37,386 nucleotides of DNA from a virus: the IMG/VR virus record IMGVR_UViG_3300042881_003046, positions 1 through 37,386 of that record; one strand, 5' to 3'. A program made the translations under genes and the position numbers. The notes under the pieces are model-generated. The model ran no database searches. It saw nothing but the letters and a program-made list of their open reading frames with translations, and was not told the origin of the DNA. Positions 5,664 to 28,150 of the stretch are shown piece by piece; position 1 is the stretch's first letter, and each line of letters starts with the position of its first letter.

Positions 5664-5894
5664 TCATGCGGCAGCCTGTTCGATTAAGGCAGCCTGATGC
5701 TCAACAATCGACCGGCCAGTGGCTTTTATAACCAGCGCATCAAGTGCGAGTTGAATGCGTATGTTGACGGGCCTGCCAGCACCTTCCGCCCGCTCCCAAC
5801 GAGAAACGGCGGCTTGATCAACACCGAGACAACCGGCAAGTTGGGCCTGCGTTATCTTCAGGATGTCGCAGCGGATTTTTCGGGCGTGAAACAT
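5664..5894 (-). CDS. Cro-like XRE transcriptional regulator
   Basis: A 76-residue protein with one XRE-type helix-turn-helix: ITQAQLAGCLGVDQAAVSRWERA (about residues 14-36). It is transcribed divergently from the S24 repressor gene, the usual place for Cro or a second switch regulator. No ribosome-binding site precedes the ATG at 5894. The -35 TTGACA at 5925-5930 and a -10 near 5903-5908 would put the transcription start at or beside the ATG, so the mRNA may be leaderless. A perfect 16-bp operator fills the promoter spacer. Cro-like function is inferred from context. Confidence 0.75.
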   Translation of the reverse strand: MFHARKIRCDILKITQAQLAGCLGVDQAAVSRWERAEGAGRPVNIRIQLALDALVIKATGRSIVEHQAALIEQAAA

Positions 5895-5902
5895 GGAGCG
5901 TA

Positions 5903-5930
5903 TTTATGCGCATGCGCATAGACATGTCAA
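5903..5930 (-). promoter_or_regulatory. Leftward switch promoter with operator in its spacer
   Basis: On the minus strand TTGACA (5925-5930) is followed 16 bases later by CATAAA (5903-5908); ATAAAT or TAAATA at 17-18 bases are alternatives. The spacer overlaps a perfect palindrome, TATGCGCATGCGCATA (5905-5920). The same 16-mer recurs with small changes at 6674-6689 and 6706-6721. A weaker half-site (TATGCGTTAGCG) lies at 5936-5947. A repressor bound here would block polymerase directly. The binding protein is inferred to be the S24 repressor, the Cro-like protein, or both. Confidence 0.7.
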
Positions 5931-5958
5931 CGCCCTATGCGTTAGCGAGTTTGCGAAT

Positions 5959-6651
5959 ATGAGCAGCAACGATTACGCAACCGGTATGACAACACTTGTC
6001 GCCAAGAAAATAGTTGGGCTACGCCGTGCCAAGCAGCTCACGCAGGGGCAGTTTGCCAAGCTGTTTGGCGTCAGTCAGGGGTCGGTATCTCGCTGGGAGA
6101 CAGGTTCTATGCCAGAACCTGAAAACTTGGCGATCCTGGCCAGCTTTGCGGGCGTCTCCATCCAAGAGTTCATTGGCCTACCGCGTGCTGACCAAGCGGT
6201 GCCAATGGGGGAGAGCGTGGAAGTGCGTGGTTCTGTTGCAGCAGGCGTGTGGCATGAAGCATGGGAATGGGCCGAGGAAGATCGGTTTACCTTCACTGGC
6301 AGCCCAGAAGCAACGCGGGTAAGGTCGCCACATCGCTTTGGATTGCGCGTGGACGGCGAAAGCATGAATCTGCGCTATCCACCTGGCACGTTGCTTGATT
6401 GTGTGTCTGTTTATGCCTTGGATAAGGAGCCAGCCAACGGTCAGCGCGTAATTGTGGAGCGCAGGCGCTTGGACGGAATGGTCGAGGCTACGGTAAAAAA
6501 ACTGGTTATAGGCGAGGACGGCAAAAAGTGGCTTGTAGCTGAAAGCAGCCACCCCGAATATCAAGCACCGATTGATGCATTTAACGGCGATCCGCTGGTT
6601 TCTGAGACACGCATTATCGCGGTTGTCGTTGGCTCCTATCGCTTAGAATAG
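5959..6651 (+). CDS. CI-like repressor with S24 (LexA-type) self-cleavage domain
   Basis: The phage repressor, about 230 residues. It has an N-terminal XRE helix-turn-helix (QLTQGQFAKLFGVSQGSVSR, about residues 26-45) and a C-terminal S24 peptidase domain. The Ser nucleophile is in DGESMNLRYPPGT (Ser135) and the general-base Lys in VKKL (Lys180 or 181). An Ala-Gly pair in SVAAGVW (95-96) is the likely self-cleavage site, so RecA-stimulated induction after DNA damage is expected. The frame is open upstream to 5893, but that would run through the operator; Met at 5959 or 5986 is more likely, and neither has a good ribosome-binding site. Confidence 0.9.
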   Translation: MSSNDYATGMTTLVAKKIVGLRRAKQLTQGQFAKLFGVSQGSVSRWETGSMPEPENLAILASFAGVSIQEFIGLPRADQAVPMGESVEVRGSVAAGVWHEAWEWAEEDRFTFTGSPEATRVRSPHRFGLRVDGESMNLRYPPGTLLDCVSVYALDKEPANGQRVIVERRRLDGMVEATVKKLVIGEDGKKWLVAESSHPEYQAPIDAFNGDPLVSETRIIAVVVGSYRLE

Positions 6652-10746: not shown

Positions 10747-11060
10747 CCGATCTGCAAACACTCGCCAGCAAATACCGCCGCGCCCTGCGGAACGGCACAG
10801 GCTGCCGGCTGACACATGAGGAGTTGCAGGCGTTGGCCGGCATCGGCACGCTTGAAACCCTACAGATAGCTGAGGCGCGGGAGTTACAGGCAGCATGGCA
10901 AACAAAACACAACACAAACGTCGAACACTTAGCCCGTTCGTCATGGGCGACTTCTGGCTCGACCGCAGGCCAGACGGCAAATCAGCCTCTTGGCAAATCG
11001 CTCGGTATGACGCCAAGGCCCAGTGCGTCCGCTATGTTAGCACTCGCTGCCAAACCCTAG
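10743..11060 (+). CDS. Hypothetical protein overlapping integrase, 105 aa
   Basis: The first 55 residues (LASKYRRALRNGTGCRLTHEELQALAG, then AEARELQAAW) form a typical small phage helical domain, seen before integrase genes in related phages as far as I recall. The rest is Ser/Thr/Ala-rich and lies in a different frame over the first 166 bases of the integrase gene. Either the overlap is real or integrase starts later. The ATGA overlap with the methyltransferase supports this start. An excisionase-like role is possible because of its place, but no recognisable helix-turn-helix is present. Confidence 0.6.
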   Translation: MTDLQTLASKYRRALRNGTGCRLTHEELQALAGIGTLETLQIAEARELQAAWQTKHNTNVEHLARSSWATSGSTAGQTANQPLGKSLGMTPRPSASAMLALAAKP

Positions 11061-12154
11061 ACGATGCCAAGACGGCTCTAGAGGCGCATTACGCCGCCGC
11101 CAAGGCAACCGGCCAGCAGGACGCCAGCGCCGCCGTGTTGCCGCAACTCTTGCTGTATTGGGACGAACGCGGCCAGCACGTTGTCAGCCCTAGCCAGATC
11201 GCCAGCAGCCTGCGGGCGTTCATCGGCTTTCTGATGCAGGATGACGCCAGCCCAGGCGTGACCTACGCAGAGTGCAACCCGGCGCTGTTCCGGCGCTTTC
11301 AGAACTGGCGCATGGGGCCGCACGCCTATTCGGTCGATTGGAAGGGCCGCAGCTACACGCACAAGCACATCGGTGTCAGCGGCAACGCGGTGCAGCGCAA
11401 TCTGGAAGATATTAGCGCGGCCCTGAATTACGCGGTCAAAGAGGGCCGGGTGCCATACGCGCCGCACGTTCCGTCAGTGGAAGCGCGGCATCGGCCAAAG
11501 AAGCCGGTGACGGTGCTGACGCTCGACCAGCTTGCCGCCATCATCGGCTATGCGCTTGATGACCGCGTGCTGTTGCGCTTCGTGCTGGCACAGGTGGCCA
11601 CCCTCACCCGCCCCGAAGCCGTCCGCGCATGGCAGCCTTGGCATCAGGCCGATCTTGCGCTGGGCATCATCGACACGCACCCGACCGATTGGCAGCGCAC
11701 AAAGAAACGGAATCCGATTCTGCCGGTGCCGACATGGTATCGTGATTGGCTGGCCGAATGGATGGCATCCGGCGAGGTGCTGCCGACGCAGACCCGCAGA
11801 CGCTGGGCCACAATGCGCGCCGCGCTGGGCCTGCCCGACGATACCGACGCCAAGATCATCCGCCGCACAATGGCGACCTGGCTGAACGCTGCCGGCGTGC
11901 CAGAGTTTGAGGTCAAGACGATGCTAGGCCACACGGCAGGCGGTGCGACAGACCATTATATTCACGTTCGCCCTGATCACCTGGTCGCCGCACGAACCAC
12001 ACTAGATTCGCTTTGGCTGCGCATTATGTTCTCTGTCCGTTCATGGCGGACGAACCATCGACGAACCACAAACCAGTTTGGCAAGATTATCGTGATCGAC
12101 GAAATTCCGGCTATATCTCACAATATCAAACACTTGGCGGCTGGTGGGCGCTGA
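10895..12154 (+). CDS. int: Tyrosine site-specific integrase
   Basis: A 419-residue tyrosine recombinase. The N-terminal part carries an arm-binding-like region (MGDFWLDRRPDGKSASWQI) and a SAM-like core-binding domain. The catalytic part shows the first Arg in TLTRPEAVRAW, a Lys in KKRNPILP, IIRRTMATWL with the second Arg (the usual His before it replaced by Lys), LGHT with its His, and Tyr355 in TDHYIHV. A tail of 64 residues after the Tyr is unusually long, and its coding DNA overlaps the attachment arms. The stop codon lies within the tRNA acceptor sequence of attP. It sits at the end of the lytic early-right operon. Confidence 0.92.
   Translation: MANKTQHKRRTLSPFVMGDFWLDRRPDGKSASWQIARYDAKAQCVRYVSTRCQTLDDAKTALEAHYAAAKATGQQDASAAVLPQLLLYWDERGQHVVSPSQIASSLRAFIGFLMQDDASPGVTYAECNPALFRRFQNWRMGPHAYSVDWKGRSYTHKHIGVSGNAVQRNLEDISAALNYAVKEGRVPYAPHVPSVEARHRPKKPVTVLTLDQLAAIIGYALDDRVLLRFVLAQVATLTRPEAVRAWQPWHQADLALGIIDTHPTDWQRTKKRNPILPVPTWYRDWLAEWMASGEVLPTQTRRRWATMRAALGLPDDTDAKIIRRTMATWLNAAGVPEFEVKTMLGHTAGGATDHYIHVRPDHLVAARTTLDSLWLRIMFSVRSWRTNHRRTTNQFGKIIVIDEIPAISHNIKHLAAGGR
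12049..12069 (+). repeat. Left pair of arm-type repeats (GACGAACCA x2)
   Basis: GACGAACCA occurs at 12049-12057 and 12060-12068, 11 bases apart. The whole 21-base pair recurs with one mismatch at 12271-12291 on the other side of the tRNA half. A single related copy (ACGAACCAC) is at 11992-12000. Paired same-direction repeats one helical turn apart on both sides of a core are typical integrase arm-type sites. Confidence 0.7.
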
Positions 12155-12402: not shown

Positions 12403-12657
12403 ATGAAAGCGATTAGCTACAGCAAGGCAGCCATCAAAGCCCTTCGGCGGATGCCGGTGCCGACCGCTAACCTGATCAAATCAAAGATCGAAGCCTATGC
12501 TGCCGATCCTAATGCAATGGCAAACAACGTGAAAGCCCTACAAGGCCGAACGGGGCTGCGCCTTCGTGTAGGCAACTGGCGGGTTATCATGGACGACCAG
12601 GGGAACGTGCTGGCCGTTTTGGAGATTGGCCCCAGAGGCAGCGTGTATGACCTGTGA
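12403..12657 (+). CDS. RelE/HigB-like toxin
   Basis: An 84-residue protein of the RelE/ParE superfamily. It starts MKAISYSKAAIKALRRMP (beta strand and helix), then KIEAYAADP, VKALQGRTGLRLRVGNWRVI (about 46-65), the typical core with the Arg-x-G-x-x-R-hhh pattern, and LAVLEIGPRGSVYDL at the end. RelE and HigB toxins cut mRNA at the ribosome, whereas ParE relatives act on gyrase; sequence alone does not decide between them. Toxin-before-antitoxin order is as in higBA. Next to attP, it would mark one end of the prophage and could stabilise lysogeny or act against other phages. Confidence 0.85.
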   Translation: MKAISYSKAAIKALRRMPVPTANLIKSKIEAYAADPNAMANNVKALQGRTGLRLRVGNWRVIMDDQGNVLAVLEIGPRGSVYDL

Positions 12658-12674
12658 CCCCTTGGGAGGATTAT

Positions 12675-13016
12675 ATGAACCAGATGATTACTATCCCGAA
12701 GGCTGAATACCAGTCTCTGCTTGAGGCGGCTGAAAGCCTGTCGGACATTATCGCCTTTGACCGCGCCGCCGCTGCGCTTTCCTCTGGCGATGAGGAATTG
12801 ATCCCGGCTGCGTTTGCCGACCGACTGATTGCAGGCGAAAATCCGCTTGCCGTCTATCGTGATCTGCGCCGCCTTACGCAGATTGCGCTGGCGGAAAAGT
12901 CCGGCGTTCATCGCGTGAGCATTGCCGAGATCGAAACAGGCCGAAAGCAAGGCTCACTTGGGACGCTAAAGAAGCTGGCCGATGCTCTGGGCGTGGCCGT
13001 TGACGATCTGATCTGA
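12675..13016 (+). CDS. XRE-family antitoxin
   Basis: A 113-residue protein. The N-terminal part (ITIPKAEYQSLLEAAESLSD) resembles the Phd/RelB-like start of antitoxins and would wrap the toxin. The C-terminal part is an XRE helix-turn-helix (LTQIALAEKSGVHRVSIAEI, about residues 65-84, then GTLKKLADALGVAVDDL). The ATG at 12675 is chosen for its GGGAGG ribosome-binding site; a GTG at 12654 overlapping the toxin stop is in frame but has none. Binding to the palindrome at 12383-12399 is expected. It converges with the spanin gene, whose stop is only three bases away, with no terminator between. Confidence 0.85.
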   Translation: MNQMITIPKAEYQSLLEAAESLSDIIAFDRAAAALSSGDEELIPAAFADRLIAGENPLAVYRDLRRLTQIALAEKSGVHRVSIAEIETGRKQGSLGTLKKLADALGVAVDDLI

Positions 13017-15682: not shown

Positions 15683-16174
15683 TTAGTCTTGCAGCGTCCA
15701 AGTGACGGCGGCGATTTCTGCCAGCGTTTCGGCGGCATCAATGCGGCTCTTGAGGACGCGGGCGCGGGCGTGCATGGCGGCGACATGCGCTGCTATGGCC
15801 AGGCCCGCCTCTTCCAACTGAGGCACCGTCAACAAAACATCCTTGTCGTCAGCAAGCGTCCACTTCACTTCGGTAAGCAGACCTTTCGCGGCCAATCTCT
15901 CAGCGGCATCAAGCGAACCCTTGAGGAAGTCTCGGCTGCGCGGGCCGCACTGAAACAGACCGTGCGGCGTTTGGCAGACGCCATCTTGTGCAGCATCGCG
16001 CGCCAAATTGATGATTGCACGCTGGCGGGCGCGACCGGCGGCCAGATCGGGAATTAGCACATCATCCGATTCTGCCGGCAGCACCGTCATGCCGGTCAGA
16101 TCGTAGTGTGTCAGATCGGCATCATCCGGCACCCGCTGCACCAAATTGCCATCAGCGTCGATAAAGGCCAGCAT
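15683..16174 (-). CDS. DUF4376-like tail-fibre-associated protein
   Basis: A 163-residue protein. The central and C-terminal parts match the DUF4376 pattern: RARQRAIINLARDAAQDG, then CQTPHGLFQCGPRSRDFLKG, VKWTLADDKDVLLTV and HARARVLKSRIDAAETL. Such domains occur in or next to tail fibre proteins, perhaps as assembly or tip elements. The start at 16174 is chosen because its ATG overlaps the stop of the tail-tip gene by one base (TGATG). It probably belongs to the adsorption apparatus. Confidence 0.7.
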   Translation of the reverse strand: MLAFIDADGNLVQRVPDDADLTHYDLTGMTVLPAESDDVLIPDLAAGRARQRAIINLARDAAQDGVCQTPHGLFQCGPRSRDFLKGSLDAAERLAAKGLLTEVKWTLADDKDVLLTVPQLEEAGLAIAAHVAAMHARARVLKSRIDAAETLAEIAAVTWTLQD

Positions 16175-19100
16175 CACGGCACCCACGAAATTATGGCGTT
16201 GTTGGGCGTCCCTGCTAGGGCATCGCCCGTCAGGCGGCCTGTCACACGGAACTCGTTGTTGGCCACAGAAACTGGCCCTGCCAACGTGCGCACGATTGTC
16301 ACCGCACCAAGCGTTATGTCGCCCGGTTCGCCAGGAGCAATATCATCTGCACGGGTAGCCTCGCTGCCGGTTTGCGATGAGCCAATCTGCGTCCAGCTTC
16401 CAGTTCCCGGCACTGGTCGCCAATCAACCGTCAACTCAATCGCCCCTGATCGCGGGCCACTGCCGCCCGATTGCGGAGAATAATTGATTGTGGCGCTAAC
16501 CTGTGTGGTGCCGTTAGGGCCGACACCCAACGTGCCAACGCCAAGCTGCGCAAAGCTGGCGGTGGTTGGCATTGAGACGGCGAAACTGGTGCGGGCGTTG
16601 GCGATAAACTCCAACTGCACCTCCCACGCGGAGCCGCTCCAGCGCCGCAAACGCTGCTCACCGGGGATTGACCAATAGTCGCCAGCTTGAGGGCCAACGG
16701 GTGTTGCCGCCCCTGTGAACGTGCGGTTTTTTGAATTGGCCGTGGTCTGCGCCGTTGTGATGTTGCCGGCCACTGTTGCCGCTGGCGTGCCGCCCAGCGC
16801 GTTCGAATTGGCGGAAGTGTTGGCGCTGGTGACATCTGCACCAGGCGCAATGCCCGCCAGCTTGCTGCTTTCAGTGGTGTTAATATCGGCCAGCGCAACC
16901 GGCCTGCCGGTTAGCCCATTATATGCCGTAAGTGCGTTTGCGCCTGTCAGCCACGCGCCGCCGCTGCGCAGTTTGAACACGGCAAATGTCCCGCTGGTAT
17001 CAACCCACAGATCGCCATCAACGGGGCTGGCTGGCGCGGTGGCGCTATAGGTGACGTTGTTGCGGGTGGCATTGTCAGCGGGCCTGCCCGTGCCGGTGAC
17101 GCTGGGCCAGAGTGCAGTGGTCGCGGCAGAATTTATTCCAGAAGTCAGTTCTTCTGGTGCCTGCATCCAATCAGTGGGCTTGTTGCCTTCCTCTACCTTA
17201 ACGTAGCCAACATTTAGCGTAAATCCTGCAGCAAGTGGGAAGAAATAAAACCGACTATACGTAAGGTTTGCGCTGTTAGGCGTGAGGAATGTGTAGTAAA
17301 TTAGCCTCCATGATGTTGAAACTGCCGTGTCAGCAGCTATGGCAGTTTCTTGATGGACGTTGCCCGTGTCTTCATCGCGCCAGTTTTGGATATGCAGCGT
17401 TGTATCGGCACCGCCAGCTAAACTGCTGCTACCTTTTACCACCGCGCTGACTGTGTATTGAGTGTTAGGCTTCAGGCGCATTAGGGTTGATTTCACTGCA
17501 CCGCCAGAACCTACTATTTTCAGGGTGCTGTATTGGCCGTAAAGAACGCTGGCGTCCAAGGACACTGTCCCGCCATTAGACGACCAATCAGCCACGTTGG
17601 TAAACTGCCCGCTGTTCGTCATAAGATTGCGAGCGCCTACCAAAACCTTAGTGTTGTCAACACTAGTTCCGGCACCAGAAGAAACACCCTGAATAGTGCC
17701 GTTAGCGTCTATTGAGGTATTGTTTGCGTTATCAGCCGGCCTGCCTGCGCCGGTAACGTTAGGCCAGAGCGCAGTCGTTCCGGCAGTGACGATGTTGCTG
17801 GCCACCGTTGCCGCCGCCGTGCCGCCTAGGGCGTTGCTGTTAGCTGCGGTGTTGGCGCTGGTAACATCGGCACCAGGCGCAATATCCGCCATCAGCCAGC
17901 TTGCCGCCGCTCGGCTGTCAAACACAACCGGCGCAACCGGCGTAACCTGTGCGCTCTCGCTGGCCGACCACGCATAGATTGCAGCGTTTTCCTCACGCAG
18001 CACAACCTCAACCGTTGCGTCTGCATTGAAGGTCAGCGACCGCACTCGGAACAGTTTACCCGTCCACCCGCGCGCCGATGACGTGACGGCAACCACCATG
18101 TTGCGCCGCAGCAACCAGCCACGCACACCCAGCGTGACGGCAAACGTGCCTTGGTAGAGATTGCGAACGGCAGCCTGTTTGGCAATGCGCTCGGCGCGGC
18201 GCGGCTCTTGGACGGCGCTCAGTTCAAGCGTCAGCGGGCGCGGAGCAAGAGACGTGCGCGCGATGGCGACTTCGGGATAATCCACCAAGCTATAAAGCGT
18301 TGCGCCTGGTGCGCTATAACGGCCACGCACAACCGTATATTGCTGCTCAATAGGTGCGGCAGGCTTCCACGAATAGCCGCTGACAAAATCATCATCGGTC
18401 AGCGTGTACGCGGCAGTGAGATCGTTGACCGCAAGCCGCAGCGACAGCCGCCCGCCATCGTCCACCAGTTCACCGTTCATGGCGTCCAGCAGCGTGCGGA
18501 TCACCGCCAGCGGATCATCGCTATCAGCAAAGGCGCGGCCCGCTTCATAGCGGCGCTGTGAGCCACCAGCGGCAAGCGCAACACTTTCATCGCACAGTGC
18601 CGCAGCGGTGGCAAAAGATGGCAGATCAATCGTATCGACAGGCAGGCCACAGCCGACCGACACAACGCCGCCGATGCGCCAGCCCAGCAGATAGGTCAGC
18701 AGTTGCAGCGCCGGGTTGTTGCCGCGCGCTGCGCCTGCCGTGTAAGCCCAAGTCGTTTGCGTGGCCGCGCGCTGTGAGCCGCTGCCGCCCGCAACCGTGC
18801 TATCAAGCGCCGGATCATAGACCGGGATGCCGCGCCCAATGACAGCCCAGCGCCCATTGATGCCGCTGCTAAACGGAGATTGACTGTTCTTGCTGTTGTC
18901 GCTGCGCTTCACCCGCACCTTCATGGTGGTGCAGCCGGTCAGGCGCGTGCTGCTGTTCCATGTCGTGCCGGCGTTGACTGTGTGGTACGCGCCGCTGCCG
19001 GCTTCTAGAATGACCTCGACAGTCAGATAGCCAACGTATTTGCCTTGAGCGCCCCCGCCCACAGTCCATGCAAGATCATCCTCGATGTAGATTTCGCTGA

Positions 19101-19470
19101 TGGCGTCTGATTTGTGCGCGGCCAAGGCGAAAATGTAGTCGATATATTCTTGGTTGGTGCCGCTCGGTTCAGCGTAGCGCAGATCAACCACAAACGTGGT
19201 CTGGCCAAACACCAACTTGCGCGGCGATGCCGGATCGGGGTTGATGCTTTTGGGGTCAAACGCTGTAAGTGCGCGGCGCGCTGCGGTGGTTAACAGGCTC
19301 CCGCCAGCGGTTGCAGCAATTGACACAAGGGTGGCAACCGAAGCGATGCCCGCCGCCGCCGATGCAATCCCCGCCGATGCTATGCCAGCGCCCGCCGCCG
19401 CGCCGACCCCTGTCGCAACCAAGGCGACAACGGCGGCAATCGTGCCGATAGTTTTTAGCGCCTTACCCAT
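16174..19470 (-). CDS. Tail tip / host-specificity (J-like) protein with internal repeats
   Basis: The largest protein, 1098 residues. It begins with a Gly/Ala-rich hydrophobic stretch (GTIAAVVALVATGVGAAAGA, through about residue 60), then the tail-hub-like part of phage tip attachment proteins (to about 520). The distal part holds repeats: IAPGADVTSANT followed by ANSNALGG occurs near 530 and again near 870, and TTALWP...VTG.GRPADN near 565 and 785. Between the latter lies a carbohydrate-binding-like beta domain (about 600-770), coded by visibly more A+T-rich DNA. The final part carries QAGDYWSIPG and Trp-rich segments. It should contact the cell surface receptor. Confidence 0.82.
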   Translation of the reverse strand: MGKALKTIGTIAAVVALVATGVGAAAGAGIASAGIASAAAGIASVATLVSIAATAGGSLLTTAARRALTAFDPKSINPDPASPRKLVFGQTTFVVDLRYAEPSGTNQEYIDYIFALAAHKSDAISEIYIEDDLAWTVGGGAQGKYVGYLTVEVILEAGSGAYHTVNAGTTWNSSTRLTGCTTMKVRVKRSDNSKNSQSPFSSGINGRWAVIGRGIPVYDPALDSTVAGGSGSQRAATQTTWAYTAGAARGNNPALQLLTYLLGWRIGGVVSVGCGLPVDTIDLPSFATAAALCDESVALAAGGSQRRYEAGRAFADSDDPLAVIRTLLDAMNGELVDDGGRLSLRLAVNDLTAAYTLTDDDFVSGYSWKPAAPIEQQYTVVRGRYSAPGATLYSLVDYPEVAIARTSLAPRPLTLELSAVQEPRRAERIAKQAAVRNLYQGTFAVTLGVRGWLLRRNMVVAVTSSARGWTGKLFRVRSLTFNADATVEVVLREENAAIYAWSASESAQVTPVAPVVFDSRAAASWLMADIAPGADVTSANTAANSNALGGTAAATVASNIVTAGTTALWPNVTGAGRPADNANNTSIDANGTIQGVSSGAGTSVDNTKVLVGARNLMTNSGQFTNVADWSSNGGTVSLDASVLYGQYSTLKIVGSGGAVKSTLMRLKPNTQYTVSAVVKGSSSLAGGADTTLHIQNWRDEDTGNVHQETAIAADTAVSTSWRLIYYTFLTPNSANLTYSRFYFFPLAAGFTLNVGYVKVEEGNKPTDWMQAPEELTSGINSAATTALWPSVTGTGRPADNATRNNVTYSATAPASPVDGDLWVDTSGTFAVFKLRSGGAWLTGANALTAYNGLTGRPVALADINTTESSKLAGIAPGADVTSANTSANSNALGGTPAATVAGNITTAQTTANSKNRTFTGAATPVGPQAGDYWSIPGEQRLRRWSGSAWEVQLEFIANARTSFAVSMPTTASFAQLGVGTLGVGPNGTTQVSATINYSPQSGGSGPRSGAIELTVDWRPVPGTGSWTQIGSSQTGSEATRADDIAPGEPGDITLGAVTIVRTLAGPVSVANNEFRVTGRLTGDALAGTPNNAIISWVP

Positions 19471-19873: not shown

Positions 19874-20499
19874 AGATCACGCTCCTTGGCGTCCCATTGC
19901 GGAAAATTGCCACCGCCGCCGGGTATGCCTGGCGTTGTGCCGGCCATGCGCACCGCACCGGACACATCGCCGGCATCGTATAGGGTGGACTGAACATAGG
20001 TGCGGTTCTGCGCGCCGCTTAACAGAGCCAGATAATTCTCTGCTTCCATCGTAATGGTGTAGCTGCTGGCGTCAGCCTCTTGTGACGGCTGCGTCATGTA
20101 ACCCCGATATAGCGGGCGCAGTTCAGTAACGGTCGCGCCGCCGCTGGTGACGGTTGCCGGGTTGTAGATTGCCAGCCACACCCGCACCCGCCGCCCAGCA
20201 TAAAGCGCCGAGTTTTCAATAGCTGACATCAGCGCGGTGTCGGCAGGATCGGCTTGCAGCGTAAAGCCAAGCGTGTCTGTGCCGCCGTCATCGTGACTAA
20301 CCGCGCCGACTTGCAAAACCTTGCTATCAATCACGTCAAACGTGAAGCCGGCACAATCGCTGTCGCTATCAGTCAGGCCGGTCGGCACATGGATTGGGCA
20401 AGGCGCATAGGCACCGCGCAACGGCAGATCAACAAAGTCGGCAAAGAACAGGATGGCCGAATTTGGCGTGGCTGTAAGCGTGGCATCAACCAACGGCAT
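19870..20499 (-). CDS. Tail hub-like protein (DUF2163-type)
   Basis: A 209-residue beta-rich protein. Features are DLPLRGAYAPCPIHVP (about 23-38), CAGFTFDVIDSKVLQVGAV, the segment RVRVWLAIYNPATVTSGGAT (about 113-132) and RPLYRGYMTQPSQEADASSY. The C-terminal part has FPQWDAKERDL, similar to the end of GTA hub proteins. Order between the Dit-like protein and the NlpC-like protein matches GTA gp12-gp14-like clusters. The structural role in the tail baseplate is inferred from this order. Confidence 0.65.
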   Translation of the reverse strand: MPLVDATLTATPNSAILFFADFVDLPLRGAYAPCPIHVPTGLTDSDSDCAGFTFDVIDSKVLQVGAVSHDDGGTDTLGFTLQADPADTALMSAIENSALYAGRRVRVWLAIYNPATVTSGGATVTELRPLYRGYMTQPSQEADASSYTITMEAENYLALLSGAQNRTYVQSTLYDAGDVSGAVRMAGTTPGIPGGGGNFPQWDAKERDL

Positions 20500-21119
20500 C
20501 AGAAGAACTCCTCTGCCGTCAACCGCTGGAAGTCATACACGCCGCCCGGCGACACGGCCCAGTTGACTGCGCTGTCACTCAGCCGCATCGCCGAAACTGG
20601 AAAATGAATTTGCACCACAGCGTTGTCAGCCGGTGGGCCGCGCAGCGGGGTTGCCAGCGTTGCAGCCGCCTGCCCGCTGCCGTTAGCAACCAACGCGCTG
20701 CGCAACACGATTAGCTGCCGGTCGTCGGTCGTGATCGGAACAGAGATCATCGCGCCGGCAGGGAGGTTCGTGACGCTGGCTTGCAGGCCATCCAGATTAA
20801 GCGTCTGGCCAAGCTGATTGGCACCATTGACCAGGCACGTCACCGGCACCGGAGCGACGGCCTGCGCGGCTTCCACGGCTTCCAGGCGGAACCCATCACC
20901 GGGCTGCGCCATATCAGCCAGGAACTCGCGCAAGAGGTTCAGCGCGCTTACGCTGTTCGTCGGCACGAAATCCAGATCGCACGTCCACCTTGCGCTCGGC
21001 CCAATGCGCAGTTCGCGCGTCTTGCCGGTGAACTCGCTGCGGTTGCGGACAACGCCGCCCGATTGCCGCCAGTTGACGGCGCGCAGGGGGATGCCAGCGG
21101 GAAAGTCGATAATTGCCAT
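20499..21119 (-). CDS. Distal tail (Dit-like) protein
   Basis: A 206-residue beta-rich protein directly after the tape measure gene. It starts AIIDFPAGIPLRAVNWRQSGGVVRNRSEFTG written in segments (IPLRAVNWRQSGG, then RSEFTGKTRELRIGPSARW), has MAQPGDGFRLEA (about 91-102) and ends SPGGVYDFQRLTAEEFF. Position after the tape measure is where distal tail or GTA gp11/gp12-type proteins lie; it would cap the tube and join the tip. The exact family is uncertain. Confidence 0.6.
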   Translation of the reverse strand: MAIIDFPAGIPLRAVNWRQSGGVVRNRSEFTGKTRELRIGPSARWTCDLDFVPTNSVSALNLLREFLADMAQPGDGFRLEAVEAAQAVAPVPVTCLVNGANQLGQTLNLDGLQASVTNLPAGAMISVPITTDDRQLIVLRSALVANGSGQAAATLATPLRGPPADNAVVQIHFPVSAMRLSDSAVNWAVSPGGVYDFQRLTAEEFF

Positions 21120-21120
21120 T

Positions 21121-22977
21121 TTACACCCCCGCCGACATGGGCATCCGCTGCCGCGTGGACTTGCGGAGCGTCTCTTGTGCTGCCGCCTGTGCGCCTTGCG
21201 CCACCGTGGTGATGAACAGCGGCGACGGATTGACCGTCACGTTGACCGACTGCTGCCCGCCGCCGCCCTGCCCGCTCGGTACGCGCGGCATGATGTAGCC
21301 AGAGGTTGATGGCACAAACAATTCAGGGCGGTTTTCGCCAACAACATATGCGCGGCCTGGCATCACGCTGCCGCCCGTTGCACGCCCGCCGCCAAAAAGA
21401 CTGGTAACCGCGCTAATGCTTTCGCCAAAGCTGACACCGCGCTTTCCACCTGACAGCAAATTAAGCAGTCCAGACGAAATCAACTCAGACGCAGCTGCCT
21501 TGATGCTGTTTAATAGCGCGTCACCCAGGCTCTGGCCGTTTAAAATAGCCTGTGCCAAACCGCTCGAAAGGCTGTTGGTAAAATCATCAGCCAACTTAAT
21601 TTGTTCTTGGCCAATAATATTAATTTCAAAATCGTAAGATTGCAAATCGCTAAGTGTAGACGCAATGCCTTGCAACGCTTGGTTGGTCACTTCAATTTTA
21701 GCTGGCGTGCCGGCATCAAGCAATTGCCGCAGTTCAAAGCCGCTCTCCATGTTGGCGGGTGTAAAGTCTTTGGCAGCTTTGCCTTTTTTCTTTTTGTCGG
21801 AAGATGCAGCTTTTGGCAAAGGCGATTTACCAAACCGGCCACGCTGGTTGAGCGGAAAGCGCCCAACAATATCAAGCATGTAATCTTCTTTTTCAAAACG
21901 GGTCAGCGTTTCAAGCGCCTCTCGTTCTTCTTGGCGCGTTCGTCCAATTACAGCCGCACCGCCGCCAATCAAATTGCCACGCTCACGGGCGCGTTCGGCA
22001 GCAATCCGCGCCAGCTTTGCGTCATTGGCTTGACGCGCCAAACGGTCACGCATTCCAGTCGCCGTGCCGGATGCCGCCGCTTCGTCAAGGCTTACGGTCA
22101 TCATCGCGCCAACGCCTTCGCTTTTGCGGATGTTGGCCAAGCCGCGCGAAACGCGCTCTAGATATTCAAAGCTTTTGGCGGCCTTGTCCAACTGGCCCAT
22201 AAAGAAATCATTGAAGCCCAGCGCCCCCAGAGCCGTCGCCAGCCGGCTTGCCGCGTCCCCTAGGTTCGACAGCTTACCGTCAATGGTGTCCATCTGCTTG
22301 GCCATACTGCCAGCAAACACGCCGCTTTCATCGCCCAGCCCGCGCAAATATGCGGTGATCGCCTGTGCCGTGTTCTGAACGGTTGTCGTTACACCTTGGA
22401 ACGTGAACTTTACCTTGTCGCCTTCCTTGCTGGCCTTGATGCCAAACTCTTTGAGACGCTCGAACTCGCCAGTTGCCGCATCGGCAACCGCTTCGATGAA
22501 CTGCATGATGTCCTTGCCCATAGCGGCGCTGGTGTTCCCAAACGAACGCAGCGCCTCGGTAGAGGGATCAAGACCAAGGTTCTTTAGCTTGATGTAAGCC
22601 TCAGTCACCTGGCCCAGCGTGAACGGGGTTTCAGCGGCAAACGACTGCAACTCTGACATGGCACTTGCCGCGCTGCCGGCGCTGCCCGTGGCAACTTCCA
22701 GCATGGCAGACAGCCGCTGCATGTCGGCATTGGCGCGCACCATAAACGATGCCGCCTGGCCAACGGACAACAGCCCCGCCGCAAACCCGGCAAGACGAGC
22801 CGTGGCTGCGTTGGCTGAATTGCCCATCCCGGCAAAACCGGCGTCAATCTTTTGGAGCTTGGCCGCGCCCTTGTCCGCAAACCCATCAATATCGTTGCGG
22901 GCTTTAGCCACTTCCTGCCGCAACAGCGTGGCACTGGCGTCGATCTGCAAAAGCAGGCGCTGCACATCTTCAGCCAT
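21121..22977 (-). CDS. Tail tape measure protein
   Basis: A 618-residue protein. The N-terminus is helical (VQRLLLQIDASATLLRQEVA), followed by the tape-measure N-domain signature FAAETPFTLGQVTEAYIKLKNLGLDPS (in parts: SFAAETPFTLGQV, LKNLGLDP, about 112-136). The middle is charged and helical with a Lys-rich spot (DKKKKGKAAKDF), then LAQAILNGQSLGDALLNSIK, and a C-terminal part with RATGGSVMPGRAYVVGENRPELF (GGxVxxGxxYxVGExGPE motif, about 534-556). By the usual 0.15 nm per residue the tail would be about 93 nm long. This length is a rough estimate. Confidence 0.9.
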   Translation of the reverse strand: MAEDVQRLLLQIDASATLLRQEVAKARNDIDGFADKGAAKLQKIDAGFAGMGNSANAATARLAGFAAGLLSVGQAASFMVRANADMQRLSAMLEVATGSAGSAASAMSELQSFAAETPFTLGQVTEAYIKLKNLGLDPSTEALRSFGNTSAAMGKDIMQFIEAVADAATGEFERLKEFGIKASKEGDKVKFTFQGVTTTVQNTAQAITAYLRGLGDESGVFAGSMAKQMDTIDGKLSNLGDAASRLATALGALGFNDFFMGQLDKAAKSFEYLERVSRGLANIRKSEGVGAMMTVSLDEAAASGTATGMRDRLARQANDAKLARIAAERARERGNLIGGGAAVIGRTRQEEREALETLTRFEKEDYMLDIVGRFPLNQRGRFGKSPLPKAASSDKKKKGKAAKDFTPANMESGFELRQLLDAGTPAKIEVTNQALQGIASTLSDLQSYDFEINIIGQEQIKLADDFTNSLSSGLAQAILNGQSLGDALLNSIKAAASELISSGLLNLLSGGKRGVSFGESISAVTSLFGGGRATGGSVMPGRAYVVGENRPELFVPSTSGYIMPRVPSGQGGGGQQSVNVTVNPSPLFITTVAQGAQAAAQETLRKSTRQRMPMSAGV

Positions 22978-22980
22978 GCA

Positions 22981-23094
22981 TCACCTCGGTGCGTTGATTT
23001 CTTTATGGATTTCCAGCGCGGCCCACGCCTCATGCGGGGTGGCCTGCCAGAAAGACGACGGAGGCAGATGAAACACTGCCGTCCAGATGCCCAT
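22981..23094 (-). CDS. Tail assembly chaperone, GTA gp10a-like (Phage_TAC_6-like)
   Basis: A 37-residue protein, MGIWTAVFHLPPSSFWQATP then HEAWAALEIHKEINAPR. The FW-x-x-TP-x-E pattern matches the small chaperones next to the tape measure gene in GTA-like clusters (DUF2376). Its ATG at 23094 shares a base with the upstream chaperone stop (TGATG), so the two proteins are made by coupling. Many other phages make the second chaperone by frameshifting instead. The frame is open for longer upstream, but that part is not similar to anything. Confidence 0.7.
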   Translation of the reverse strand: MGIWTAVFHLPPSSFWQATPHEAWAALEIHKEINAPR

Positions 23095-23510
23095 CAGCCG
23101 GCGGCGGGGGTCGCCGTTTCCGTCACCGGCTTCCACTCCCCCGATGCCGTCACGCCGCCGGTTGCGGCTGCCATCAGCACAATGGCGCAACGCTCAGTGG
23201 CCTGCACCAGCCCGTGTTCGTGGATCAGCCGCGCCACCTTTTCAGGCCGCGCGCCAGTTGCCGACCGCGCTTCGGGCTGGTCGTTGCCGTTTGCCGCCTG
23301 CTGCTTGCCCCATGCGCGGATGCACTCAGTCACGATGATGGCGGCGTTTTTCAGGCTTAGTTCGCCCTGTGCCGCCAGATTGACCAGCGCCACCACACCG
23401 CGCCCGGTCGCCGTCTCAATCGCCTCAATGGCTTCATAAGACGGGCGCATCACATAGGTGGCGTCCAGATCAATCGTGACCTCGCCGCGTGTGTTGGCTT
23501 CACTCATCAA
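23094..23510 (-). CDS. Tail assembly chaperone, GTA gp10-like (Phage_TAC_11-like)
   Basis: A 138-residue protein with EVTIDLDATYVMRPSYEAIEA (in parts: VTIDLDATYVMRPSY, then EAIETATGRGVVALV), the pattern of the GTA gp10 chaperone family, followed by NAAIIVTECIRAWG and KVARLIHEHGLVQA. It would bind the tape measure protein before tube polymerisation. It overlaps the upstream 86-residue gene by 11 bases and the small chaperone by one. Met1 and Met2 are equivalent starts. Confidence 0.75.
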   Translation of the reverse strand: MMSEANTRGEVTIDLDATYVMRPSYEAIEAIETATGRGVVALVNLAAQGELSLKNAAIIVTECIRAWGKQQAANGNDQPEARSATGARPEKVARLIHEHGLVQATERCAIVLMAAATGGVTASGEWKPVTETATPAAG

Positions 23511-23760
23511 TCACCGTTTCGTTTGTTGCGATTGCATCAAGCAGCGCCGCGCGCCACGACCATTCGCCCGCCTCTGCCGCCATTGCGCTGGCCAGTTCAG
23601 GAACGGTGGCCTTGTGACGAAGCAGCGGCGCAGCGATTGCGGCCATGACGCCAAAGCCTGGCGGCAGCGGGCCGGTCAGTGCATCGCGCGGGGTGGTGCC
23701 GATGCGATCCAGCACCGCATCGGCATAGCCTGAAGGCGCGCGGCCCAGCTTATCAATCAC
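23500..23760 (-). CDS. Hypothetical tail-region protein, 86 aa
   Basis: A small mostly helical protein between the tail tube and the chaperone: SGYADAVLDRIGTTPRD, then LPPGFGVMAAIAAPLLRHKA and EWSWRAALLDAIATN. It starts three bases after the tail-tube stop and overlaps the chaperone start by 11 bases. I do not recognise the family. The position would suit a third chaperone-like or tail-assembly factor. Confidence 0.65.
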   Translation of the reverse strand: MIDKLGRAPSGYADAVLDRIGTTPRDALTGPLPPGFGVMAAIAAPLLRHKATVPELASAMAAEAGEWSWRAALLDAIATNETVIDE

Positions 23761-23763
23761 TGG

Positions 23764-24180
23764 TTAGACCAGCAGATCGGTGGACGGCGCAGCGACAGGC
23801 GTGAACGCAACATTGACGGTGTTCACGTCATTCAGCGGGCTGCCGGTGTTCATCGACGCAACGCGCATGGAGCAGGCAAAAACCACCGTAGGCGTGCCGA
23901 CTTTGACCACCTGAATGACAGTGGCCGCACCGCTGGCAAAGATCGTTTCAAGGCGCGTGTGGCCTGCCGCATCGGGCAGATCGGGGCGATACTCAAGCGA
24001 CAGGCTGTAGTTGCGCATCGCGCGCCCGGTGGTTTCAACCACCGCAGATTTGTCGATAGTGCTGAACGAGGTTTCGCCGCGATCCAGCGTAACGCTGATC
24101 TGGCCAGCAACCTCGGCAAAGGTGCCAGGCGTGGCGCTGTCAACGCGCACGCGATATTCATTTGATGAAAGTTTAGCCAT
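23764..24180 (-). CDS. Major tail (tube) protein, copy 1
   Basis: A 138-residue beta-rich tail tube protein. It starts MAKLSSNEYRVRVDS and contains RGETSFSTIDKSAVVETTGR (about 34-53), NYSLSLEYRPDLPD and ACSMRVASMNTGSPLNDVNT, ending VAFTPVAAPSTDLLV. It is about three quarters identical by eye to the gene directly upstream, with identical length and frequent identical DNA stretches. Tube proteins stack as hexameric rings around the tape measure. It is the second (3') of the two copies and has TAAGGAG before its start. Confidence 0.88.
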   Translation of the reverse strand: MAKLSSNEYRVRVDSATPGTFAEVAGQISVTLDRGETSFSTIDKSAVVETTGRAMRNYSLSLEYRPDLPDAAGHTRLETIFASGAATVIQVVKVGTPTVVFACSMRVASMNTGSPLNDVNTVNVAFTPVAAPSTDLLV

Positions 24181-24192
24181 CGCAAAAGCTCC

Positions 24193-24609
24193 TTATGCCA
24201 GCGTGTCAGTGGTGGGGGCAGCAACCGGCGTAAATGCCGCGTTGATCGTGTTCACATCGTTCAGTGGGCTGCCGGTGTTCATGCTTGCCACCCGCATGGA
24301 GCAGGCAAACACCACGTCACCCACGGCAAAAGGTGACTTGCGGACTTGAACGCCAATGGCCGCGCCGCTGGCAAAGATCGTTTCAAGGCGCGTATGACCC
24401 GCCGTGTCTGGCAGATCGGGGCGGTATTCCAGCGCAACGCTGTAGTTGCGCATCGCGCGCCCGGTGGTTTCAACCACCGCAGACTTGTCAATAGTGCTGA
24501 ACGAAGTCTCGCCGCGATCCACAGTCGTGCTGATCTGGCCAGCAACGGCGCTAAAGACCGACGCAGTGTCGATGAAAACGCAGTAATCGTTAGATGACAG
24601 CTTGGCCAT
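24193..24609 (-). CDS. Major tail (tube) protein, copy 2
   Basis: A 138-residue protein and a tandem paralogue of the gene at 23764-24180. The central part (ISTTVDRGETSFSTIDKSAV, YRPDLPDTAGHTRLETIFAS) and the C-terminal part (ACSMRVASMNTGSPLNDVNT) are nearly identical, while residues 8-25 and 88-97 differ. Both have a strong ribosome-binding site (AAGGAG) at the same distance, so both should be made in quantity. One could form the tube and the other a minor or terminal ring, or both could mix. The family call is by pattern and position. Confidence 0.88.
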   Translation of the reverse strand: MAKLSSNDYCVFIDTASVFSAVAGQISTTVDRGETSFSTIDKSAVVETTGRAMRNYSVALEYRPDLPDTAGHTRLETIFASGAAIGVQVRKSPFAVGDVVFACSMRVASMNTGSPLNDVNTINAAFTPVAAPTTDTLA

Positions 24610-24621
24610 AGATGCCGCTCC

Positions 24622-25035
24622 TTAAAGAATAATCAGATCAAAGATTTGCCGACCAACATGCACAAGGTTGGCATCGGTCACTTCTTCACCAACGCCGCTT
24701 GCTTGCAGCCTGCACTCGGACACGGAAAACCCGGCAACTGTCAGCTTGTGGCCTTCTAGAAGGTTGAACACCCTGCCCACGATGGCCTGCGCGCTGGGCT
24801 TGCTGCGGCCACGGTAGATCGTAACGATGCTCACACTGGCGCGGCGCGGGGTGGCGTCTTTGCTTTCAGCCGCCTGCAAATCAACGCCATCGACAACCAC
24901 GATTGCCGGCAGCACCTCATCGGGCGCACGCTGGTAAACCGGCACCGCAAGCGTCACGCCGCCTTCGGTGTATGTGATGCCGGCCAGGCGTGCGAAAACC
25001 GCCGCAGCGATTGCGGCAGTTGGATCGTTTGCCAT
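24622..25035 (-). CDS. Tail terminator-like protein (DUF3168-like)
   Basis: A 137-residue protein starting MANDPTAAIAAAVFARLAG (start at 25035, five bases after the upstream stop at 25040). It has VPVYQRAPDEVLPAIVVVDG (about 29-48), SIVTIYRGRSKPSAQAIVGR, and EVTDANLVHVGRQIFDLIIL at the end. This is the arrangement of DUF3168/tail-completion proteins that close the tail tube at the head end. It lies between the HK97 gp10-like protein and the tube genes, the normal place. Confidence 0.78.
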   Translation of the reverse strand: MANDPTAAIAAAVFARLAGITYTEGGVTLAVPVYQRAPDEVLPAIVVVDGVDLQAAESKDATPRRASVSIVTIYRGRSKPSAQAIVGRVFNLLEGHKLTVAGFSVSECRLQASGVGEEVTDANLVHVGRQIFDLIIL

Positions 25036-25866: not shown

Positions 25867-26765
25867 CAGGCCACCATCAAAACGCGATAGGCGCTGATCA
25901 GGGCGTCATAAGCCAGCGGCACATCAACCGGCGTGCTGTCGCTGGTCACGGCCTCACGGTGTTCATACCAGTGGCCGATCAGCAGCAGCGCGGCATGACG
26001 CAGCGAGGCCGGCACCGCGTCATTGCTTGCATAGCCGGCCTGATACGTCACCCGCACCGTGCCGATGCCAAGCTCTACCGCAGGCCACGTCACAGCGTTG
26101 GCCGGCACAATCCACGATGCGCCGGCAAAGCTACGCGACCGATACTGATTGGCCGCCAGCACCTGTTCAGCACCAGCTTCGTCGTCATAGGCAACGGTCG
26201 TCACCGACACCACCGGCCCGCGCCACAACGGCAGGCGCTGGCGGCCATTGATTGACCAGCCCTCAAACGCCACGCTCACCGCGCGCTGGCGCAGCACCAG
26301 CCCGGTGTCGCGTTCGATCATGTCAGCAGCCGCGCGGATCAGGCCAACAATGTGGTCATTCTCGCTGTCGTCCACCACGCGCAGATGCGCCTTGGCTTCT
26401 GCCAGGGTCAGCGGCGCATTGAGCGAATCTGACTGCGCCACCCGCACCAGAACAGACCGCTGAAACGTGCGCGCTGGGCTGGCGTTGGTGGTCACCGTCG
26501 CGGTGACGACAGCCAGCACACCCGCCGCAAACGCTGCGTTGCTCGGCTGCGCACAAGTCAGCCAGAACCGCACCGACTTGGACACGGCGATAGGTGCATA
26601 AGCGCCTGAACCCAGCGCCAAGCCCACGCCCGTGCTGGTCGCGTCGATTGTCACCGATTGCAGCGCAACGGTTTCGTTCGTGTCAAGCAGATCGTCAAAA
26701 GCGATCACATAATCCGCCACATCGGACGGGTCATGCATACCAGCGAACAGCGGTGCCTCACTCAT
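25866..26765 (-). CDS. Head-tail connector (gp6/phiE125 gp8-like) with N-terminal extra domain
   Basis: A 299-residue protein of two parts. Residues 115-299 (LTLAEAKAHLRVVDDSENDH, LIRAAADMIERDTGLVLRQR, GIGTVRVTYQAGYASND, LRHAALLLIGHWYEHREAV) are the connector family that stacks on the portal. Residues 1-110 (VIAFDDLLDTNETVALQSVT, then a stretch ending FQRSVLVRV) look like a separate beta-sandwich domain that in other phages, as I recall, is encoded as an independent gene of about 110 codons. Fusion of the two appears to be natural here, as no stop or start intervenes. Confidence 0.8.
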   Translation of the reverse strand: MSEAPLFAGMHDPSDVADYVIAFDDLLDTNETVALQSVTIDATSTGVGLALGSGAYAPIAVSKSVRFWLTCAQPSNAAFAAGVLAVVTATVTTNASPARTFQRSVLVRVAQSDSLNAPLTLAEAKAHLRVVDDSENDHIVGLIRAAADMIERDTGLVLRQRAVSVAFEGWSINGRQRLPLWRGPVVSVTTVAYDDEAGAEQVLAANQYRSRSFAGASWIVPANAVTWPAVELGIGTVRVTYQAGYASNDAVPASLRHAALLLIGHWYEHREAVTSDSTPVDVPLAYDALISAYRVLMVA

Positions 26766-28150
26766 GCGTTCGCCTCCCGTTTTCTACCTTGCAAATTCAA
26801 CGTCCGCGATCCGCCAGCCACAGTCGCAGCCCGGTCGCCACTAGACGCCGATGCCGCACGCACAGCGCCCGCAACACCAACACCACGGCTTTGCCCGTCA
26901 ACGGTCAGCACCCTGTCGCCAGCCGGCACCAAGTCGCCGGCAACCAAGGCCGTTTGATCACCAACCAGGCCAATAGTGCCGTCATTGGCTGCAACACGCG
27001 CCAGGGCGGCAAGCGCCGCATTGCCCGCCACTAGGCCCACAACGCCCGCATTGGCCGCCAGCGTGGCGCTGGCTTGCGTAACGGTCGCGGTACCACTCAA
27101 TCCAACCGTGCCAGCACCAACCGACAGATCAGCCGGCGCTTGCAACGTCAGCGCATCGGTCAAGCCCAGCGTGCCAGCATTAGGCAGCAAGGCCGCATTG
27201 GCCGCCAAAGCTGTAGAGCCGCCCAGCAAGCCAAGCGCGCTTGGTGCCGCCGTCAGCGTTGCCGTTGCTATTAGCGCCGTAGTGCCGCCAGATAGCCCAC
27301 TAGTTCCGGCATCAACAGACAGCGCAGCATCCGCTTGCAGCGTCAGCCCATCCGTCAAGCCCAACGTGCCTGCGCTTGCCAGCAAGCCGGCATTGGCCGC
27401 CAAGGTCGCAGAGCCACCCAGCAAGCCAATTGCGCTTGATGCCGTCGCCAACGCGGCATTTGCTGTTAAGGCCGCCGTCTCGCCAGATAGCCCACTAGTT
27501 CCGGCATCAACAGACAGCGCAGCATCTGCCGCAAAGGTTGCCGCGCCAGCAGAGAGGCCCAGCGTGCTTGCGCTGGGGAACAACGCCACGCCAGACGCAA
27601 ACTGCGCATCGCCGCCCGCAATACCTAGCACGCCCCCGTTGGCCGCTAGACTTGATGCACCGCTAAAGGTTGCCGCGCCGCCGACCAGGCCAATGTTGCC
27701 TGAATCCGGCGCAATCGCTGCGACAGCGGCAAAGTTTGCCGCACCGCCAGTTAGCCCAACTGCGCCCGCTGCGCCGGTTAGCGTTGCCGCTGCCGCAAAC
27801 GCAGCATCGCCGCCAGACAGCCCAAGTGCGCCGCTGTCAGCCGCCTGAGTGGCTGCTGCCGTAAAGGTCGCAACGCCGCCAGTTAGCCCAAGCAAACCAG
27901 ACGCGGCTGTTAGTGCAGCCGCCGCCGTAAAGGCGGCAGTCCCACCCGAAAGGTCAATGCTGCCAGCGTTAGGCGTAATCGTAACCGCGCCGGCTGCCGG
28001 TGGTGCGAGGCCAACAACCGGCTGACCGGCCAGTGTGTAATCAAGCGTGTTTGACGAAGGCGAAAGTGCCTTCGCTTCCAGGTACGCGGCAGGCTGCCCT
28101 GCGCCCGTAAAATCAAGCGTTAGAACGTCACTCCGGGTCGGCAGCGGCAT
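26762..28150 (-). CDS. Repetitive Ala/Gly-rich protein of 22-residue repeats
   Basis: A 462-residue protein of unknown family. After a short N-terminal domain (SDVLTLDFTGAGQPAAYLEA, then LDYTLAGQPVVGLAPP) come about 16 repeats of 21-23 residues with consensus AALxxxAGxxGLxGGxAxFxA. Regular hydrophobic spacing and Gly turns suggest a beta-solenoid or fibrous structure. A basic C-terminal tail (GGSRTLNLQGRKREANA) closes it. Two copies share a 46-bp identical DNA stretch. It lies between a beta-helix protein and the connector and might be a head-displayed fibre; this is inference. It overlaps the connector gene by ATGA. Confidence 0.75.
   Translation of the reverse strand: MPLPTRSDVLTLDFTGAGQPAAYLEAKALSPSSNTLDYTLAGQPVVGLAPPAAGAVTITPNAGSIDLSGGTAAFTAAAALTAASGLLGLTGGVATFTAAATQAADSGALGLSGGDAAFAAAATLTGAAGAVGLTGGAANFAAVAAIAPDSGNIGLVGGAATFSGASSLAANGGVLGIAGGDAQFASGVALFPSASTLGLSAGAATFAADAALSVDAGTSGLSGETAALTANAALATASSAIGLLGGSATLAANAGLLASAGTLGLTDGLTLQADAALSVDAGTSGLSGGTTALIATATLTAAPSALGLLGGSTALAANAALLPNAGTLGLTDALTLQAPADLSVGAGTVGLSGTATVTQASATLAANAGVVGLVAGNAALAALARVAANDGTIGLVGDQTALVAGDLVPAGDRVLTVDGQSRGVGVAGAVRAASASSGDRAATVAGGSRTLNLQGRKREANA
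27286..27526. repeat. 46-bp perfect direct repeat within the repetitive gene
   Basis: 27286-27331 and 27481-27526 are identical over 46 bases, 195 bases apart. That distance equals 65 codons, or three protein repeats (22+22+21 residues), so recombination between them would add or remove three repeats in frame. The flanking bases differ, so this is a recent or conserved duplication inside an older repeat array. Confidence 0.8.

Follow-up and report, generated by a model that had tools for sequence, protein, structure and literature searches.

Two Adjacent Tail-Tube Genes Are Kept Together in a Group of Related Phages and May Supply Two Subunits to One Tail

The tail tube is commonly regarded as a homopolymer, and tubes of two fused domains are attributed to an ancient duplication. 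Here, we analyzed a stretch of virus DNA (IMG/VR record IMGVR_UViG_3300042881_003046, positions 1 to 37,386; "the window" below means this whole 37,386-nucleotide stretch) in which two adjacent, unfused genes on the minus strand, copy A (24193–24609) and copy B (23764–24180), appear to encode two closely similar tail-tube proteins. Among siphophages, the nearest described cases are T5 pb6, phiCbK and P74-26, which also show a tandem duplication of the tube domain, with two non-identical domains lining one tube; as described there, however, the domains are fused, form trimeric (pseudo-hexameric) rings and are 16% identical in P74-26, whereas the window has two genes with 79% identical products (PMC5717097, PMC10034513, PMC8718954). 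The SPP1 tail likewise contains two tube subunits, gp17.1 and gp17.1*, at a reported ratio of 3:1 (PMC8718954), but these come from one gene and a ribosomal frameshift and differ by a C-terminal FN3 domain, whereas the two genes of the window differ inside the tube domain itself.

Other tube-fold systems offer partial parallels. According to PMC13323088, paralogous subunits of the Hcp tube of the Bacteroides type VI secretion system mix in one ring, and PDB entry 9vne, by its title a B. fragilis Hcp2-Hcp3 heterohexamer, is a precedent for mixed rings; Hcp, however, forms a contractile secretion tube that carries effectors rather than a DNA conduit, and the mixing demonstrated there is only proposed here. 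The initiators Alg5 and Alg7 are tube-fold paralogues of the bulk tube protein within the same particle (PMC8894135), but they are described at the spike end only, and Alg7 has an extra domain, whereas the copies studied here are close in sequence, adjacent and share a stacking loop. The tube protein of the Rhodobacter capsulatus gene transfer agent (GTA), Rcc01691, resembles both copies in its fold, in being a minimal tube protein without a decoration domain and in the GTA-gp10-like chaperone encoded next to it; the GTA, however, is described with one tube protein and five rings (PMC7296036, PMC8718954). In the parts of the open-licence PMC literature consulted, we found no siphophage with two closely similar tube proteins encoded by separate genes and no unfused stage of the duplication behind the fused tubes. 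The phrase "two major tail proteins" used for JBD30 was rejected as a precedent, since in the text available it meant neighbouring copies of one protein.

Copies A and B are intact genes of 138 codons plus a stop each (supported by open reading frame (ORF) calls, alignment and predicted fold), separated by a gap of 12 bp between the A stop and the B start (24181–24192, minus strand). These results confirm the tandem duplication that a preliminary description, made from the letters of the sequence alone, had reported. The two proteins are identical at 108 of 136 aligned residues (79%, with two 2-residue gaps), so that the earlier estimate by eye of about three quarters caught the strong likeness and was slightly low; the genes are identical at 330 of 407 aligned bases. 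This likeness is far beyond chance (E = 2e-64 for B against A within the record), and the same within-record search of the 37,386 bases found A and B only, with no third tube copy. The differences are concentrated at about residues 8–25 and 86–99, close to the two clusters (8–25 and 88–97) first noticed, and the identical ribosome-binding signals noticed at that time were also borne out: AAGGAG lies ~8 nt 5' of the ATG of both genes, in the Shine–Dalgarno (SD) region at 24610–24625 (minus strand) for A and, for B, within the TAAGGAG formed by the A stop codon and the gap. An assembly artefact is ruled out because the pair is present in 13 other contigs. A T5-type fused tube protein was rejected, as A and B are separate ORFs, each with its own stop, SD and start, and SPP1-type dual tail proteins were rejected, as the two genes are of equal length and have no C-terminal extension.

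The preliminary description had assumed that both products are tube proteins, and this identity is supported by the predicted fold of both copies and by the gene order. The AlphaFold monomer models of the two copies (mean pLDDT 75 and 73, a middling confidence) both showed a beta-sandwich with a flanking helix and a long beta2–beta3 loop, and their best solved matches were siphophage, monocin and GTA tubes, with top Z scores of 12.1 (B) and 11.8 (A). The monocin tube matched B at Z 12.1 (rmsd 6.5, 130 aligned) and A at Z 11.4 (rmsd 6.1, 119 aligned), the Rhodobacter GTA tube at 11.0 (B) and 10.7 (A), and lambda gpV at about 9–10. The pair lies between the tail terminator and the chaperone and tape measure genes, in the order Hc1, Neck1, terminator, A, B, an 86-aa gene, tail assembly chaperone (TAC), tape measure protein (TMP) and distal tail protein (Dit). 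By sequence profile, neither copy reached the Pfam family Phage_tail_2 (PF06199) at its cut-off: B scored 22.7 bits, under the gathering cut-off of 23.8, and A was unmatched at E 0.001. The family matched 21 of the 34 members of one of our alignments (A2) at E 0.01. The sole solved-structure match by sequence with the other alignment (A1), an aminopeptidase at E 0.13, was taken as chance.

Both copies are retained in relatives. IMG/VR scans with A and with B returned an identical set of 13 other contigs, all of which carry both copies in the same order, and, with the window counted, the 12-bp gap is kept in all 14 contigs. Both genes are complete and open in 12 of the 13; in the remaining contig, IMGVR_UViG_3300004126_000001 (loci L016 and L010; 31.6 kb), copy B spans both contig ends. 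These ends overlap inside copy B, which fits a circular assembly. Decay of one copy in relatives, which the preliminary description had named as its test, was not seen in any of the 13 two-copy contigs. These contigs form two clades, with identities to the window copies of 93–100% in clade 1 and of 64–66% (A) and 76–80% (B) in clade 2. Contig L003 matches the window exactly across the tail genes, and the two may represent a single virus. The ratio of nonsynonymous to synonymous substitution rates (dN/dS, NG86, six within-clade pairs for each copy) was 0.02–0.11 for A and 0.06–0.19 for B, values that indicate that both copies are under purifying selection.

Other relatives have a single tube gene. 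A sister group of 8 contigs (L028, L037–L043) has one tube gene between the terminator and the 86-aa gene, in the same gene order and with no remnant of a second tube copy. Most full-length neighbour genes compared between sister group and window are 54–76% identical, with 43–48% for the 86-aa gene and 39% for the tape measure of L040. A further 23 more distant loci (L027, L036, L044–L064) have one tube copy in the stretches examined; whole records were searched for a second copy in the case of MT835603, L039 and L040 only. In the tube tree, the B copies of both virus clades form one clade with a support of 100/98, the clade-1 A copies are weakly nearer B than the clade-2 A copies are (87/72), and A and B group without the sister at 63/15; the neighbour-gene tree did not separate clade 1, clade 2 and the sister group. 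By the approximately unbiased (AU) test, the A copies of both clades as one clade were not rejected (AU 0.37), and neither was a grouping of the copies by virus clade at 0.05 (AU 0.08, 0.06). Could the gene have been duplicated twice, once in each clade? Two independent duplications are disfavoured: because the clade of B copies is firm, the remaining tree signal is better read as blurring by gene conversion, and the tube sequences thus show a duplication older than the split of the two virus clades. The single-copy state of the sister group may be ancestral or may reflect a clean loss of B.

Other sequence sets were scanned as well. No tube relative was found among the plasmids, one (36% identity) among 50,697 phage records, and one locus in the scan of genome contigs; a scan of 398 Pseudomonadota genomes with the A2 profile found only G001, which is the metagenome-assembled genome (MAG) of L028 itself. 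In the MAG contig of L028, which is binned as Nitrosomonadales, genes of bacterial appearance (by eye, small heat-shock-like and PEBP-like) are joined at about position 2466 to the final codons of the terminator gene of the phage; the contig is probably chimeric, and its host label is thus unreliable. A search for tandem tube genes through PF06199 found 81 places in 77 of the 398 genomes and no adjacent intact pair, a base rate that is a weak control since PF06199 detects this tube lineage poorly. In one genome (G275), two PF06199 places abut and appear to be halves of one broken gene.

What sets B apart from A? Position 12 is Phe in 14/14 A copies, 8/8 sister copies and 22/23 outgroups (Tyr in the other one), and Arg90, Pro93 and Asp98 are found in 14/14 A, 8/8 sister and 23/23 outgroup proteins. 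Every one of the 14 B copies instead has Arg12, Val or Ile at 92, Thr98 and a two-residue gap in which the Pro is lost; the window B carries Val92 and a beta4–beta5 loop that is 2 residues shorter. Because A shares its residues with all 31 single-copy tubes (all but one for Phe12), A represents the older state, from which B has departed. In the window, the predicted beta4 and beta4–beta5 loop regions, both copy-specific, are residues 87–98 of A (VQVRKSPFAVGD; 24316–24351, minus strand) and residues 89–98 of B (IQVVKVGTPT; 23887–23916, minus strand).

We then compared the alignment columns of 5 clade-1 and 4 clade-2 viruses. In both clades, 14 columns separate A from B, and 5 columns separate the clades irrespective of copy. 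Half of the copy-diagnostic columns (7/14) lie within 89–100, compared with 2/62 of the other variable columns (Fisher p 5e-5), and 10/14 lie on predicted outer strands, taken as beta1, the following short strand, beta4, the beta4–beta5 loop and early beta5, compared with 12/62 of the others (p 3e-4). The predicted beta2–beta3 loop (columns 41–52) contains 0/14. In the tubes described in PMC8718954, the outer sheet consists of beta1, beta4 and beta5.1, and most of the ring-to-ring contacts are made by the beta2–beta3 loop. In the JBD30 tail, as described, the beta2–beta3 loop fits between two loops belonging to the next ring; by strand order only, one of these may be the beta4–beta5 loop. The copy-specific patch would then be the outer face of the tube, a socket for the stacking loop, or both.

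The stacking loop itself bears the mark of gene conversion. At 73 diagnostic sites, the other clade-1 A copies agree with each other, the B copies agree with each other, and A differs from B. The window A is B-like at 11 of these sites, and the longest run comprises 7 of them, in codons 41–52 (diagnostic sites 121–156 of the codon alignment); a run this long appeared in 0 of 20,000 shuffles. With loop coordinates derived by hand from the alignment columns, the tract corresponds to the predicted beta2–beta3 loop of copy A (residues 39–50; 24460–24495, minus strand), overwritten by B sequence in the lineage of the window, and its likely donor is the same loop of copy B (residues 41–52; 24025–24060, minus strand). 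The direction is from B to A because a KAS motif present in the other A copies, in clade-2 A and in the sister group is lost in the window A. The tract indicates that the copies can exchange their stacking loops, in this lineage at least. In L011 and L012, A and B match in the loop at 27 and 28 of 30 positions within a genome versus 24 of 30 between orthologues, which is suggestive of a second loop conversion.

Recombination between the copies and the position of the changes raise another possibility, namely that virions use A, B or A/B recombinants as alternatives and that the tandem copies serve as a recombination reservoir. The preliminary description had listed surface variation among its options, and it was right in that the copy-specific residues lie mostly on predicted outer strands; these residues, however, are fixed within each copy (14/14) rather than variable, and the recombined tract is the stacking loop and not the outer patch. 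Furthermore, inspection by eye of the 12-bp gap showed no promoter or inversion device. We regard alternative use as very improbable.

The expression signals of the two genes are matched. Among 12 structural genes compared, the initiation regions of A (−11.2 kcal/mol) and B (−12.7 kcal/mol) are the least structured, followed by the capsid gene (−13.6) and the rest (−14.6 to −29.3 kcal/mol); in this comparison, the terminator and chaperone starts were 3–6 bases off, and the tube and other genes were taken at their ORF-list starts. The SD pairing (A −8.8, B −8.5) and the codon adaptation (A 0.587, B 0.586) are nearly equal, and AAGGAG is kept at 16/16 A and B starts of eight relatives. Equal signals would be more readily expected of two bulk subunits than of a bulk subunit paired with a protein needed in six copies. 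Such strong signals on both genes are also what a redundant pair would show, in which both copies do the same job and the second chiefly adds dosage or survives through drift, and the gene conversion that keeps parts alike and the existence of single-copy relatives agree with it. Redundancy is nevertheless improbable, because both clades, whose A copies differ from each other at about one-third of residues, have the copy-specific residues fixed, B has lost residues that are invariant in 31/31 single-copy tubes, and purifying selection acts on both copies.

The main rival is a dedicated end ring: one copy, presumably B, would form a single ring, either as an initiator on the distal tail protein or as the last ring under the terminator, and the other would be the bulk tube. 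Contractile systems have such tube-fold paralogues (Alg1 with Alg5/Alg7), the gene order puts B on the side of the tail tip, B alone departs from the single-copy consensus and is better conserved between clades than A, and the distal tail proteins of the two-copy clades are nearly identical. On the other hand, the stacking loop, which contacts the distal tail protein in the GTA, has no copy-specific residue and is gene-converted, and a six-copy protein is not expected to have initiation signals equal to those of a bulk subunit. We consider an end ring unlikely.

From the retention of both genes, their pattern of divergence, the converted loop and the matched initiation signals demonstrated above, we infer that A and B are both bulk tube subunits, co-assembled in one tail, their stacking loops being interchangeable and their outer faces distinct, a reading to which we assign a probability of roughly one-half (about 0.52). 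Of the options that had been listed for the pair, a mixed tube fits best, given the equally strong, open initiation regions and the shared, gene-converted stacking loop; the listing itself had left the choice between them open. The A and B proteins would be made in similar, large amounts, the interchangeable loop would let each stack on the other, and the altered outer face or socket of B would mean that certain subunits or rings contact their neighbours differently or present another exterior. A and B might be mixed within a ring (e.g., alternating 3+3), form separate rings or be placed at random. Hetero-hexameric A3B3 rings of alternating A and B from two unfused genes are doubtful as a specific arrangement. 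If they exist, such a tube would be a living intermediate that links ordinary siphophage tubes, which are homo-hexameric, with the fused tubes of T5, phiCbK and P74-26, which are trimeric. The symmetry of the tube would drop from six-fold to three-fold and would then agree, over the full length of the tail, with that of the three-fold tip.

Several points weigh against co-assembly. The single-copy relatives lack B, and two copies are consequently not required for this tail type. B is the more conserved copy between the clades (76–80% versus 64–66% for A), and the two-copy clades share a distal tail protein at 96% identity, compared with 54% for the single-copy sister; taken together, these values could point to a link of B with the tail tip. 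The regions compared in the Fisher tests were chosen with the columns already in view and largely match the stretches already named in the preliminary description, the models are of middling confidence with the outer face placed by strand order, and the 14 copies are not independent, as several contigs are near-identical. Even so, a conserved unfused pair with a single-copy sister makes the path of duplication testable, since the same tail module occurs with one or two tube genes, and the converted loop beside the fixed differences predicts which surfaces may mix and which must differ.

The neighbours of the pair, all on the minus strand, are as follows. Directly before A lies a tail terminator-like gene (24622–25035; PHROG 176, 3.9e-7, with Pfam tail completion gp17 just under its cut-off). 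Directly after B lies the 86-aa gene (23500–23760), which had no Pfam or PHROG match and keeps the same place in relatives; across L013, L028 and L039, its identity between clades is 43–48%. It is followed by a tail assembly chaperone of the GTA-gp10-like family (23094–23510; Pfam Phage_TAC_11, 5.4e-8), the 618-aa tape measure protein (21121–22977; Pfam TMP_3, 1.5e-13; PHROG 1716, 3.6e-50) and the distal tail protein (20499–21119; PHROG 1302, 6.5e-20). At about 1.5 Å per residue, a tape measure of this length would suggest a tail of ~90 nm with some 140 tube subunits. In a comparison of the window with L034, L035 and L039, the tape measure, terminator and Hc1 proteins are about 57–71% identical between the two two-copy clades, unlike the distal tail protein at 96% (54% in the single-copy sister group, to which L039 belongs), a pattern of mosaic exchange at the tail tip. 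The chaperones of L020 and L009 are only 51–52% identical to that of the window although the flanking tube genes are at 93–96%, which marks a mosaic boundary in the tail module.

Elsewhere in the window, a 462-aa ORF rich in Ala, Gly and Leu lies between the capsid and tail genes (26762–28150, minus strand). It had no Pfam match and is made up of repeats of ~20 residues; at the DNA level, repeat units of 195 bp (2 copies, 83%) and of 66 bp lie in tandem inside it. On the plus strand, an S24-type repressor, a weak integrase match and a ParE-like/HTH toxin–antitoxin-like pair (5893–6651, 10895–12154 and 12403–13016) point to a temperate phage. A host search with the integrase gave a single match, at 25%, in a Tritonibacter record. 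Finally, a 1098-aa tail protein (16174–19470, minus strand) has a Phage-tail_3 match followed by a carbohydrate-binding domain, CBM_4_9, which is possibly its receptor-binding part.
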